A stretch of DNA of 41,800 nt from Bacteroidota bacterium (GTDB lineage Bacteria; Bacteroidota; Bacteroidia; UKL13-3): assembly GCA_947446605.1 (NCBI GenBank), contig CANFHJ010000008.1, positions 1-41,800 on the forward strand. The letters are read 5' to 3'. Every line of letters begins with the position of its first letter. Position 1 is the first letter of the stretch. Below the pieces are notes generated by a model, which made no database searches, was not told the origin of the DNA, and saw only the letters and a program-made list of their open reading frames with translations. Of this stretch, positions 26,004 through 31,017 are shown piece by piece. The position numbers and the translations under genes are program-made.

Positions 26004-26034
26004 CTTGCTTATTTGAGTTTTAGCCTTATATTTG
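26004..26034 (+). promoter_or_regulatory. Promoter for the rimP-nusA-infB operon
   Basis: TATATTTG (26027-26034) fits TAnnTTTG and a TTG at 26005-26007 is 19 bases upstream, the usual Bacteroidota -33/-7 spacing. The expected start of transcription is near 26040, just before a strong hairpin at 26049. Confidence 0.6.
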
Positions 26035-26048
26035 TGGCATAATTAATT

Positions 26049-26077
26049 AAAAGAGGGGACCAAAAGTCCCCTCTTTT
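26049..26077 (+). terminator. Terminator-like hairpin in the leader directly before rimP
   Basis: AAAAGAGGGGAC (26049-26060) pairs perfectly with GTCCCCTCTTTT (26066-26077) around a CAAAA loop, and the right arm ends in TTTTGTT. It lies downstream of a good promoter and seven bases before the rimP ATG. It may simply end transcripts of the 24635 gene (53 bases after its stop), or act as an attenuator that also cuts rimP transcripts; either way rimP transcripts from 26040 must pass through it. Confidence 0.7.
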
Positions 26078-26084
26078 GTTACCT

Positions 26085-26549
26085 ATGCAGATCGTAGAAC
26101 AAATAAAAGAATGGAGCGCCGAGGTTTTAGAACCATCGGTTTTTGTGGTAAGCGTTGAGTTTAAGCCAGGTGGAGATAAATTACTTGTGCTCATAGACAG
26201 TGATGGGCCCCTCACCATTGAACAATGCAGGAGCCTAAACAGACACCTCTCAAACAAATTGGATGAAACCGATTATGGTGATACCCCCTATAAATTAGAA
26301 GTTTCATCTCCAGGTGTAGATAGACCATTGCAATTGGCACGCCAATACAATAAACATATTGGCAGGGAATTTAAAATTATTTTAAAAGCCAAAACAGAAT
26401 TGGAAGTTAAACTAATTGGCATCAATGAAAATGTTCTAAACGTTCAATTAAAAGATAAAAAGAAAGCATACCAAGCCAAAGAACCAAGCTTTAAAGATAT
26501 TCTTATGGAAGATATTGAAGAAGCCTTTGTAATGGTATCCTTTAATTAG
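26085..26549 (+). CDS. rimP: Ribosome maturation factor RimP
   Basis: Needed for assembly of the 30S subunit. ATG 26085 gives MQIVEQIKEWSAEVLEPSVFV and 154 residues, a normal length; an in-frame TTG at 26076 is buried in the leader hairpin and is a poor start. The N-terminal alpha/beta domain holds DKLLVLIDSDGPLTIEQCRSLNRHLSNKLD in its expected order, and the hinge motif YKLEVSSPGVDRPL (about 69-82) is diagnostic. A C-terminal SH3-like domain follows (about 92-154). nusA starts 19 bases after its stop, and infB follows, the conserved rimP-nusA-infB order. Confidence 0.95.
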   Translation: MQIVEQIKEWSAEVLEPSVFVVSVEFKPGGDKLLVLIDSDGPLTIEQCRSLNRHLSNKLDETDYGDTPYKLEVSSPGVDRPLQLARQYNKHIGREFKIILKAKTELEVKLIGINENVLNVQLKDKKKAYQAKEPSFKDILMEDIEEAFVMVSFN

Positions 26550-26568: not shown

Positions 26569-27804
26569 ATGCACAGTGCAGGACTAATCGACTCGTTTAG
26601 CGAGTTTAAGGAGTTTAAAAACATCGACCGCGCAACCATGCAGCGCGTGTTGGAAGATGTGTTTCGCGGTATGTTGCGCAAGCGCTACAACAACGACGAA
26701 AACTTTGACGTGATTATCAATGATAAGAGTGGTGACTTAGAAATTTGGCACAACCGTAACATTGTTCATGATGGTGAAGTTGAAAATGAAAACATGCAAA
26801 TTGCCTATTCAGATGCGGTTAAAATTGAACCGGATTTTGAAATTGGTGAAGATGTTACCCAAGAAGTTGGATTGCAAATATTTGGCAGAAGAGCCGTTCT
26901 TTCTGCTCGTCAAACACTACTTTCTAAAGTATTAGAATTAGAAAAAGACGAATTCTACAAAAAATACAAAGACCGTGTGGGCGAGGTTGTTTCTGGAGAA
27001 GTTTACCAAATCTGGAAAAAAGAAATCATGGTATTGGACGATGAAGGCAACGAATTATTGTTACCTAAAACTGAAATGATTCCAGCAGATTTCTATAAAA
27101 AAGGCGATGCCATTCGTGCCGTTGTTTTGAAAGTAGAAATGCATAATGGAAACCCAAGAATTTTATTGAGTCGCACCTCTGGTACCTTCTTAGAGCGCTT
27201 GTTCGAACAAGAGGTTCCTGAAATTATTGATGGTTTAATTAGCATCAAGAAAATTGTACGCGAACCAGGTGAAAGAGCAAAAGTGGCTGTTGAAAGCTAC
27301 GACGATCGTATTGATCCAGTTGGCGCTTGTGTGGGTATGAAAGGTTCTCGTATACATGGTATCGTTCGTGAATTAAGAAACGAAAATATTGACGTTATTA
27401 ATTATACAACCAACCCAAGTCTATTGGTTCAGCGCTCTTTAAGCCCTGCTAAGGTTTCTTCAATTAAAATTGATGAAGAAAGAAAACGTGTTTCTGTATT
27501 CTTAAAACCAGATCAAGTTTCTTTGGCTATCGGTAAAGGTGGTCATAATATTAAATTGGCTGGTAAATTAGCTGGATATGAAATTGATGTTTACAGAGAA
27601 GCTGAAAGCGAAGAAGAGGATATTGATTTGGATGAATTTAGCGATGAAATTGATAGTTGGATCATAGACGAACTAAAAGGACTTGGCTTAGACACGGCAA
27701 AAAGTGTATTGGCTATTTCCAATGAAGAATTGGTTCGCAGAACGGAGCTTGAAGAAGAAACTGTGCAAGAAGTGCGCAGAATTTTAGAAGCTGAGTTTGA
27801 ATAA
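26569..27804 (+). CDS. nusA: Transcription termination/antitermination factor NusA
   Basis: Binds RNA polymerase and nascent RNA to control pausing, termination and antitermination. The 411-residue protein has the N-terminal polymerase-binding domain (about 1-130; NIDRATMQRVLEDVFRGMLRK, FGRRAVLSARQTLLSK), an S1 domain (about 131-200; GEVVSGEVYQIWKKEIMVLDD), two KH domains (about 230-345; DPVGACVGMKGSRIHGIVREL and LAIGKGGHNIKLAGKLAGYEID) and a short acidic C-terminus with one helix-hairpin-helix-like unit (LKGLGLDTAKSVLAISNEEL). The long acidic repeat domains of enteric NusA are absent, as usual outside Proteobacteria. It is followed by a 192-base structured gap and infB. Confidence 0.96.
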   Translation: MHSAGLIDSFSEFKEFKNIDRATMQRVLEDVFRGMLRKRYNNDENFDVIINDKSGDLEIWHNRNIVHDGEVENENMQIAYSDAVKIEPDFEIGEDVTQEVGLQIFGRRAVLSARQTLLSKVLELEKDEFYKKYKDRVGEVVSGEVYQIWKKEIMVLDDEGNELLLPKTEMIPADFYKKGDAIRAVVLKVEMHNGNPRILLSRTSGTFLERLFEQEVPEIIDGLISIKKIVREPGERAKVAVESYDDRIDPVGACVGMKGSRIHGIVRELRNENIDVINYTTNPSLLVQRSLSPAKVSSIKIDEERKRVSVFLKPDQVSLAIGKGGHNIKLAGKLAGYEIDVYREAESEEEDIDLDEFSDEIDSWIIDELKGLGLDTAKSVLAISNEELVRRTELEEETVQEVRRILEAEFE

Positions 27805-27811
27805 GATGAAT

Positions 27812-27966
27812 ACCAAAAAAGAATAAGCAAGCTATGTGAGCTAAACCCTCCTAGCGTCTTTTTGTGTCAAAGGCCTGAAAACTCCGATAACAAAGCTTGC
27901 TTATGCTTTTTTATTTGGTGTTTTTCAGGCCTTCATGTTGAATATCCATGAATAAAAACGATATTC
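27812..27966 (+). ncRNA. Candidate structured leader or attenuator between nusA and infB
   Basis: Two inverted repeats are interleaved. Arm A (27812-27833, core ATAAGCAAGCT at 27823-27833) pairs with A' (27894-27919, core AGCTTGCTTAT at 27894-27904); outside the core, G-C and six A-T pairs extend the stem, and A' runs into TTTTTTATTT. Arm B (27870-27881, AAGGCCTGAAAA) pairs perfectly with B' (27922-27933). B lies inside the A-A' loop and A' inside the B-B' loop, so the stems form a pseudoknot or exclude each other. A third hairpin GAATATC/GATATTC (27940-27946, 27960-27966) follows. No open frame or promoter box is seen. I do not recognise it as a known riboswitch, tmRNA, 6S or SRP RNA. Confidence 0.5.
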
Positions 27967-27996
27967 GCAGTAATTTTTAGGAAGAAAAAGCGCAGA

Positions 27997-30900
27997 ATGA
28001 GCGAAACAACAGGAACAAAGAGAATCAATGCCGTAATGAAGGAGCTAAATGTGGGGATGACCACTTTAGTTGAAGTTTTGGCTAAAAAAGGGCATGCCAT
28101 TGAGGCAAAGCCTACTACCAAACTTTCAGAAGATCAGTACGCAATACTATTGTCCGAATTCTCCTCAGAGAAAAAAGTTAAAGACGAGGCCAATAAACTT
28201 GGCCGCGATAGGCTCAAACCAAAAGATACTGTTCACGAAATCCCTAAACCCAAAGCTCTTGTAGCCGAAGAAGAGGAAGAAGAAGATGGTATGCTTATTA
28301 AATCTGGTTTGGCTAATACCCAAAACAAAAAAGTGGAAGCGCCCGCACCTGTGGCACCTCCAGTAATTGATGTGCCTGCGCCGATGGTGGAACCAGTGAA
28401 AGTAGAAGCACCAAAAGTGGAAGCACCAATTGTAAATGCACCTGAAGAAAAAGAAGAAGGTGGCTTAAAGGTAATGGGTAAGATTGATTTGGATTCCCTT
28501 AAAAAACCAAAAGCAAAAGCTAAAAAAGCAGAGCCTAAAGTTGAAGAGCCTGTTGCCCCAGCTCCTAAGAAAAAAACCAAAGAAGAGCCAAAAACCGAAA
28601 TTCCTGTTGCTCCAGCAGCAATAGCTAATGAAGTTGAAACAATTGCTCCTCCAGCAAAAATAATAGAAGCTCCGCAAGAAATTGTTGAAGCCGAAGAACC
28701 TTCAGTTACAGAAGTTAAATACGAAAAGTTAGAAGGTTTAAAGGTAATGGGCAAAATAGAGCTCAGACAAGACCCCCCAGCTAAAAAACAAAATCCCGTA
28801 GCAAGTAGTGACGATCCAAACGGAAAACGCAAACGTAAACGCAAACAAATAGGTGGTGACCAACCTGGAACCCAGCGAGTAGACCCAAATAAACCAGCTG
28901 ATCCAAACCGTCCACGCACCGGATACCAAGGTACAAACAACCGTGGTCCTGGACAAGGTGGTGGATACCAAGGCACCAATAACCGTGGTCCTGGACAAGG
29001 TGGCGGGTACCAAGGCACCAATAACCGTTATGGCAACAAACCAGGCGCGCCTGGACAAGGTGCTAACCGTTTTGGCAAACCTGAAGAAAAAACTGAAATT
29101 AGCGATAAAGAAATTCAAGATAAATTAAAGGCAACTCTTGCCCGCCTGAACCCAGGCAGCAAGAATCCTAATATTGGTGCGGTTAGATCCAAAATTCGCA
29201 AGCAAAAACGTGACTTCAAAGCAAATGAGCGTGAAGAAGCAATGTTGCAAGAGGAAATGGAGAAAAACAAACTGAAGGTAACAGAATTTGTAACGGCAAA
29301 TGAACTTGCCCAAATGATGAACCTTCAAGTTACACAAATTATTAGCGCCTGTATGAGTTTAGGTATGATGGTGTCTATTAACCAACGCCTAGATGCAGAA
29401 ACCATTGCAATTGTAGCAGAAGAATTTGGATTTGAAGTAGAATTTGTTTCTGCAGAAATGGTGGAAGCAGTTGAGGAAGAAGTGGACGATCCAAGTACCC
29501 TTGAGCACCGCGCTCCTATTGTAACTGTAATGGGTCACGTAGATCATGGTAAAACATCTTTACTCGATTATGTGCGTAGCGCTAACGTAGTAAAAGGCGA
29601 AGCGGGTGGTATTACACAGCATATAGGTGCCTACGAAGTAAAATTAGATAACGGCAAGAAAATTACCTTCCTCGATACTCCTGGTCACGAAGCTTTTACG
29701 GCTATGCGTGCAAGGGGAGCCAAAATTACCGACATCGTAATTATTGTAATTGCAGCAGATGATTCTGTAATGCCACAAACCAAAGAGGCTATCTCCCACT
29801 CATTGGCAGCAGGCGTTCCAATTATTTTTGCCATCAATAAAATTGACCGTGATTCTGCTAATCCAGATAGAATTCGTGAGCAACTCTCTGCCATGAATAT
29901 CCTTGTTGAAGAATGGGGCGGTAAATACCAATGCCAAGAAATATCTGCCAAAAAAGGTACAGGTATTGAAGCATTATTAGAAAAAGTATTGCTTGAGGCA
30001 GAAATGCTCGACCTAAAAGCAAATCCAAATAAACGTGCTGTAGGTTCTATTATTGAAGCAACTTTGGATAAAGGACGTGGTATAGTTACTACCGTAATGG
30101 TTCAAAGTGGTACAATGAAAGTGGGCGATCCGCTTTTAGCTGGAACTAACAATGGTAAAGTAAGAGCCATGTTTGACGAACGTGGAAAGAAAATGCTTTT
30201 GGCTGGACCAAGTACACCAGTTGTTATTCTTGGTTTTGATGGTGCCCCACAAGCAGGTGACCGTTTTATGGTAACCAAAAATGAACAAGAAGCGAAAGAA
30301 ATTGCCAATAAACGCCAACAATTGCAACGTGAGCAAGGTATTAGAACCAATAAACATATTACCTTAGATGAAATCGGAAGACGATTAGCAATTGGTAACT
30401 TTAAAGAATTAAATGTTATTGTTAAAGGCGACGTGGATGGTTCTGTGGAAGCATTAGCAGATTCATTGATTAAACTTTCAACTCCAGAAGTTCAGTTGAG
30501 TGTTATTTATAAAGCGGTAGGACAAATTTCTGAAAGTGATGTAATGTTAGCTTCAGCTTCGGATGCCATTATCGTTGGTTTCCAAGTTCGTCCAAGCCCG
30601 CAAGCCAGAAAACTTGCAGAAACAGAATCAATAGACATTCGTCTTTACTCTGTTATTTACAATGCAATTGAAGAAATTAAATCTGCAATTGAAGGTATGT
30701 TGGCGCCAACCATTGAAGAGAAAATATTGGGTAACGCACAAATCCGTGAGGTGTTTAAAATCACTAAAGTGGGTACCGTTGCAGGTTGTATGGTTACCGA
30801 CGGGAAATTGGTTAGAAATGCTAAAATCCGCTTAATTAGAGATGGTGTAGTTGTATTCTCAGGTGCACTTTCTTCACTTAAACGATTTAAAGACGATGCC

Positions 30901-31017
30901 AAAGAAGTGGCAACCGGTTTTGATTGCGGTTTAACCATTAACAATTACAATGATTTAAGAGAAGGTGACTATGTAGAAGCCTACGAAGAAATTGAAGTAA
31001 AACGTACCTTGAAATAA
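27997..31017 (+). CDS. infB: Translation initiation factor IF-2
   Basis: GTPase that brings initiator tRNA to the 30S subunit. At 1006 residues it has a long N-terminal extension typical of Bacteroidota. It opens with an IF2_N domain (about 1-55, [26 protein letters not shown]), then a disordered lysine/proline/alanine-rich region (about 65-370) with two copies of LKVMGKI(D/E)L and a glycine-rich tandem repeat, then a second IF2_N-like domain (about 425-485). The G domain begins near 505: GHVDHGKTS (G1), a T in GITQHIG (G2), DTPGHEAF (G3), NKID (G4). Domains II to IV complete the C-terminus. It is preceded by a structured gap after nusA and closed by a bidirectional terminator. Confidence 0.97.
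28921..29028 (+). repeat. Tandem 42-bp repeat inside infB ([14 protein letters not shown] units)
   Basis: Two full 42-bp units start at 28921 and 28963 and a third, partial one at 29005; each full unit encodes 14 residues [14 protein letters not shown]. The copies differ only at third positions and a few bases, so slippage or recombination could change copy number without shifting the frame. The segment lies in the disordered N-terminal region of IF-2. Confidence 0.9.

Follow-up and report, generated by a model that had tools for sequence, protein, structure and literature searches.

Overlapping alternative hairpins in the nusA-infB spacer of a Bacteroidota genus: a candidate regulatory RNA

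The window analysed here is a stretch of 41,800 nucleotides taken from a draft Bacteroidota genome (2.48 Mb, 203 contigs, 84.5% complete), whose nearest named relatives are metagenome-assembled Bacteroidota. It carries the operon rimP-nusA-infB. IF2, the product of infB, and NusA are core factors, and our searches of the open PMC library listed no work on the control of their relative levels in Bacteroidota. As pointed out in the initial annotation, the gap between nusA and infB is large for an otherwise tight operon. We confirmed that it measures 192 nt (27805–27996), compared to 19 nt between rimP and nusA. The features of the locus are the following.

26076–26549 as listed: rimP, first gene of the operon rimP-nusA-infB
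26569–27804, + strand: nusA, open reading frame of 411 aa, stop codon at 27802–27804
27806–27826, + strand: six-codon frame ATG..TAA (MNTKKE), 1 nt past the nusA stop, with its own stop inside arm A
27815–27833, + strand: arm A, core at 27823–27833, with an A-rich extension (inverted-repeat search, folds, alignment)
27831–27855, + strand: P2 hairpin (folds), GAG 27838–27840 with CTC 27848–27850, outer GCTA with TAGC
27870–27933, + strand: long B hairpin, arms B (27870–27881) and B′ (27922–27933) plus inner pairs, with A′ in its upper loop
27894–27904, + strand: core of arm A′ (inverted-repeat search, alignment)
27907–27916, + strand: T-tract after A′ (TTTTTTATTT), proposed stop or pause site
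27938–27967, + strand: promoter-like block TTG-N19-GATATTCG before infB
27997–31017, + strand: infB, open reading frame for IF2 (1006 aa), ATG at 27997

The spacer had been described as holding two interleaved inverted repeats, an A-A′ pairing with a perfect 11-bp core and an extension and a perfect 12-bp B-B′ pairing, followed by a third hairpin before infB. All were found where claimed, and the interleaved repeats exceed chance expectation in the shuffle tests detailed below. Arms A and A′ (27815–27837 and 27890–27912) match over 91% of 23 positions around the perfect core (27823–27833 with 27894–27904), arms B and B′ match at 12 of 12 positions, and the order of the arms is A-B-A′-B′. The A-A′ core contains four GC pairs out of 11, its arms are separated by 60 nt, and A′ is followed by GC and then by TTTTTTATTT. 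B-B′ extends inward past the 12 bp to reach 25 pairs in the fold, giving a single long nested hairpin (21–26 pairs across genomes) whose upper part encloses A′. P2 sits between A and B, its outer part overlapping the end of arm A. The third repeat, GAATATC (27940–27946) with GATATTC (27960–27966), matches at 7 of 7 positions with 13 nt between the arms; it was read from the sequence, and the inverted-repeat search did not list it at the settings used. A CCTCC in P2 was considered as a possible anti-Shine-Dalgarno sequence and rejected, since it is not conserved.

We then looked at the distribution of the element. nusA was detected in 63 of 64 genomes of the family (protein search) and in 18 of the 19 genomes of the genus, the window's own counted; the first 100 residues of infB were matched in 18 of these 19. 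All 18 spacers of the nusA-bearing genus genomes were readable, including that of G016, which is complete in a locus split over two contigs. The whole A-B-A′-B′ element is kept in the nusA-infB spacer of nine of the 18 (G000, G012, G016, G001, G005, G011, G018, G014 and G002). The nine spacers without it are those of G004, G006, G010, G013 and G017 (96–102 nt), of G007, G008 and G015 (79–81 nt) and of G009 (149 nt). In the last one a different palindrome, AGACGCGATTAATCGCGTCT, takes the place of the element and gives the impression of a dispersed repeat.

The sister genus g3 has the B hairpin only, in 4 of 4 genomes, with the same outer arms AGGCCTGA and TCAGGCCT; the inside of the hairpin differs in sequence and is again self-complementary. 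It is followed by TTTTAATT in three of the four, which suggests that a signal of terminator type existed here before the A arm did. On the nusA tree, where several forks are weakly supported, the B-only genomes form one clade and the full element needs three changes, for example one gain and two losses. A covariance model built on P2 and the B hairpin recognised the nine carriers alone among 62 genomes of the order, and the window's own alone among 395 drawn from the class; these searches used stricter filters, which missed the g3 B hairpin and can miss weak relatives. No second genomic site was obtained by DNA search of 64 genomes, the element being single-copy in the source genome. A mobile or repeated element was rejected on these grounds, neither the DNA search nor the covariance model giving a second place in the genomes searched. 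Comparison with Rfam at gathering score gave only a tRNA in the window and no match in the spacer, and nothing credible appeared at E values up to 10, the Trp_leader_2 and MIR821 matches lying far below their cut-offs.

The stability of the stems was compared to that of shuffled sequences. The whole spacer folds with a z-score of −2.67 (3 of 200 shuffles equally good), and the window's B..B′ hairpin taken alone reaches −6.2, with none of 300 shuffles as good. The same absence of equivalents among 300 shuffles was observed for the B hairpin in 13 of 13 sequences of the two genera (z from −4.3 to −8.1). In 12 of these 13, G024 being the exception, the sense strand is more stable than the antisense strand, aided by G-U pairs, which points to an RNA read from nusA to infB and makes a DNA cruciform or binding dyad less likely. 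The A-A′ pairing was tested by taking the best duplex between the B loop and the sequence that precedes B, against 1000 shuffles. The duplex was equalled 1 (G000), 3 (G012), 4 (G016), 0 (G001), 9 (G018) and 22 (G014) times per 1000, and 62 (G002), 104 (G005) and 310 (G011) times in the other carriers; four g3 controls gave 898, 40, 356 and 517. A-A′ is thus weaker than B-B′: six of the nine genomes clearly beat shuffles, G005 and G002 do not clearly do so and G011 has lost the pairing. In G002, and to some extent in other genomes, the best duplex draws also on sequence outside A.

On a MAFFT alignment of the carriers, one pseudoknotted structure allows 88.2% of cells to pair, compared to 31–52% with the partners slid. 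Compensatory changes, which the initial annotation had put forward as its own test, were observed in all three stems, but they are few, one pair each: A-U to G-C in G002 (G-U in G016) at columns 93–160 of A-A′, G-C to A-U in G002 at columns 101–113 of P2, and U-A to C-G in G005 at columns 139–191 of B. With nine sequences, three of them near-identical, a covariation test has little power. Mismatched A-A′ cells occur in G011, G012, G014 and G018, the pairing being partly broken in G011, G014 and G018, and A′ is more conserved than A. The earlier observation was correct and the RNA is real, its B pairing being firm and its A pairing probable.

To get insight into the order of events, the RNA was folded up to successive end points. 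Folded only to the T-tract, A-A′ formed in seven of the nine carriers; G011 pairs the inner B arms instead, and in G002 the partner of A′ is the P2 arm. When the fold extends to the end of B′, eight of nine carriers show the B hairpin, the exception being the window's own sequence, which forms it when the whole spacer is folded. The natural order is thus A-A′ first and B-B′ later. The proposal that a conserved RNA takes up one of two folds that exclude each other, or else a pseudoknot, gains support. The initial annotation also had A′ running into a T-tract, and this held in 9 of 9 carriers, with six or seven T within eight bases after GC. The role of antiterminator attributed to B-B′, on the other hand, had to be abandoned: B′ (27922–27933) lies 3′ of the T-tract (27907–27916) and is still unmade at the A-A′ decision. 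With the polymerase at the T-tract, B-B′ cannot prevent A-A′ and can only replace it afterwards.

As expected for an intrinsic terminator, the A-A′ stem leads directly into the T-rich tract in all nine carriers; it does not have the compact GC-rich stem and short loop of such terminators. A simple terminator scan, covering loops of 3–8 nt, listed none in the nusA-infB spacer, and a local scan for a compact hairpin with a T-rich end gave none in the window's spacer. Since its loop is long (60 nt) and its stem AU-rich, A-A′ is doubtful as a strong intrinsic terminator.

The same local scan was applied to the family. Among infB-linked spacers, a compact hairpin with at least 6 T of 8 was found in 6 of 50, three of which are the g3 B hairpin with TTTTAATT; this count was preferred to a comparison of outermost stems, which is poor because many folds span the spacer. 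Thirty of these 50 linked spacers fold with z below −2. Taken together, the two counts indicate that structured RNA without a strong terminator is common here, in sequences that differ between genera. Among the Bacteroidales loci L091–L161, both genes were present in 70 of 71, the spacer measured 50–300 nt in 38 and z was below −2 in 13 of these 38. In genera g8 and g6, infB no longer follows nusA within the stretch read. There nusA has gained a classic terminator of hairpin plus T-tract, a compact hairpin with at least 7 T of 8 being found in 8 of the 9 genomes scanned.

The six-codon frame is found in eight of nine carriers, with its ATG 1–2 nt past the nusA stop and its end inside A, and is absent in G002. 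The encoded peptides are MNTKKE (G000 and G012), MNAKKE, MSTQKA, MMLLVR, MNTTGK, MQATKA and MQATKV. None of the 3 ATG sites is variable, compared to 14 of 15 inner sites (Fisher p 0.005). As the frame was noticed first and tested after, on related sequences, we consider it a lead and not a proof. A ribosome on this frame would cover A, and it is plausible that the frame, rather than B-B′, would be the input of a switch. Further short frames were seen nearby and may be due to chance: one more frame of six codons, ATGTTGAATATCCATGAATAA, falls within the promoter-like block (window 27936–27956), and in G006, G010 and G013, which have no hairpins, a longer frame starts at an ATG past the nusA stop and ends with ..LHVEYP in that block.

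Attenuators controlled by a ribosome on a leader frame are known, as in amino-acid operons, and in the classic ones an earlier antiterminator competes with a later terminator (1-2/2-3/3-4). The present element has in common with them alternative helices, a T-tract and a short frame overlapping a competing arm (eight of nine carriers, the frame having been noticed before testing). It differs in that the helix at the T-tract is made of arms 1 and 3, whereas the competing helix, 2-4, forms later, no antiterminator being made before the terminator decision. In addition, the frame here is preceded by a complete gene and lacks a run of a single amino acid.

The promoter-like block before infB overlaps the third inverted repeat (27940–27946/27960–27966). 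The published consensus of the Bacteroidota −7 box is TAnnTTTG, with TTG or TTTG about 19 nt upstream (PMC9723704, PMC7366714), and GATATTCG has four of its six fixed letters. The same layout, TTG-N19-TATATTTG, is found before rimP (26005–26034). In genus g13, TACATTTG or TATATTTG precedes infB in most genomes, and the block is kept in genus genomes without the hairpins, the −33 TTG being missing in G007, G008 and G015. The initial annotation had proposed that infB is tuned apart from nusA. This is favoured by a promoter-like block of infB's own, retained where the hairpins are lost, but the route through a B-B′ antiterminator does not stand.

At the 5′ end of the operon (window 26005–26077), a G-rich/C-rich hairpin, AAAAGAGGGGACcaaaaGTCCCCTCTTTT, comes after the promoter-like TTG-N19-TATATTTG and immediately precedes the rimP start. 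All 29 loci in which rimP was read have a hairpin of this kind, with a T-rich end, upstream of the gene (GGGGAC or GGAGAC; a variant stem in G037). No Rfam family matched the window hairpin, which fits the description of the rimP-leader attenuator given in PMC2965389. Attenuation at rimP is known in rimP-nusA-infB operons (Naville and Gautheret 2010, PMC2965389). The rimP-leader attenuator shares with the nusA-infB element its operon, an RNA hairpin with a T-tract and NusA or translation as suspected input, and a hairpin of that description is present before rimP in the window (26049–26077). It is described as a short G-rich/C-rich stem at the operon 5′ end, whereas the element studied here is found in the nusA-infB spacer, its arms interleave and its hairpin is much longer. 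In E. coli, a cold-inducible promoter, P4, is located between nusA and infB (PMC6511841), so that there also infB is transcribed separately, from the spacer or close to it; P4 carries boxes of E. coli type, whereas the sequence found here is promoter-like and of Bacteroidota type.

The spacer RNA, with its overlapping alternative hairpins, most likely tunes how much transcription passes from nusA into infB; in its most likely role it would uncouple infB in part from the transcription of nusA, possibly depending on translation. The RNA is new and confined to this genus, and of a known sort: a local regulatory element of a familiar kind and not a new class of system. The reading we prefer, with a probability of about 0.4, is a leaky, probably conditional cis-acting transcription stop between rimP-nusA and infB, where infB would keep its own promoter just downstream. 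The structures, their conservation and their order were computed; from these we infer termination, ribosome effect and refolding in the cell as follows. As the RNA leaves the polymerase, A would pair with A′, with P2 in the loop, right before the T-tract, forming a terminator-like or pause-like helix. Polymerases that pass the T-tract would make B′, and the RNA would then refold to the long B-B′ hairpin, pulling A′ off A. Arm A would be covered by a ribosome coming straight off the end of nusA, or by one that starts again on the six-codon frame; either would favour read-through, which would in this way follow nusA translation.

A leaky stop is supported by the T-tract (9/9), the A-A′ fold (7/9), the B fold (8/9), the six of nine genomes that beat shuffles, one compensatory pair per stem, the g3 TTTTAATT, the promoter-like block and the six-codon frame (8/9), as well as by attenuation at rimP in such operons (PMC2965389) and by the E. 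coli nusA-infB promoter (PMC6511841). Against it stand the long loop and AU-rich stem, the exceptions G011 and G002 in folding, the results of G005 and G002 against shuffles, the low number of compact hairpins in linked spacers (6/50) and the nine of 18 genus genomes without the element. If the leaky stop is correct, the spacer would represent a small, testable case of RNA refolding within an essential operon, and would illustrate a rapid turnover of control points, where one genus reshapes or loses the element and the promoter-like block before infB stays.

The main rival, which we hold to be somewhat unlikely, is RNase III processing or message-end protection. The B hairpin of the co-transcript would be cut, or would cap the nusA message, giving the two messages separate lifetimes with A-A′ secondary. 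The B hairpin is indeed the firmest and oldest part, common to two genera; 30 of 50 linked spacers are structured, mostly without a compact terminator (6/50), compared to 8 of 9 unlinked nusA genes that have one, and the source genome encodes RNase III. There is also a precedent in E. coli, where RNase III cuts the metY-nusA-infB RNA, and cuts near promoters elsewhere (PMC5371410), so that a hairpin adjoining a promoter in the same operon is common to both cases. The site described there is by metY at the operon start, not before infB, and the hairpin here is a putative cleavage site. Processing or protection accounts neither for the T-tract that all nine carriers keep behind A′ nor for the A arm, P2 and the six-codon frame. 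That frame is central to a translation-coupled switch of IF2 supply, an unlikely variant in which reinitiation on it would cover A and decide between stop and infB, late B-B′ locking the passed state. Read-through into infB would then serve as a readout of translation along the operon itself, and the arms would be ordered 1-3/2-4, unlike those of a classic attenuator.

A stable pseudoknot, with A-A′ and B-B′ formed together and serving as a receptor that binds NusA or another protein, or else a small molecule, is decidedly unlikely. The joint fold is within about 3.5 kcal/mol of the nested fold, or below it, in six of nine carriers, by a crude energy sum that uses one unfitted penalty and ignores geometry, and the greater conservation of A′ than of A would suit it; yet the joint fold is clearly worse in G011, G014 and G002, and there is neither an Rfam match nor a conserved unpaired core as in known riboswitches. 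Ranking below it, and improbable, is a hairpin that once had a function, has none at present and is decaying in a spacer that tolerates it. The absence of the element from half of the genus genomes (9/18) and the partly broken A-A′ of several carriers would be expected from decay, unlike the complementary changes, the hairpin energy kept in 13 of 13 sequences and the sense-strand bias in 12 of 13. Least credible is the independent small RNA evoked in the initial annotation: the spacer does offer a compact structured stretch with a T-tract, but the element never leaves the nusA-infB spacer in DNA and covariance-model searches, no start signal of its own was identified and Rfam gave no match.

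Finally, a tandem array was observed inside infB (window 28920–29028, period 42, 2.6 copies), which codes for a repeated 14-residue stretch in the N-terminal part of IF2.
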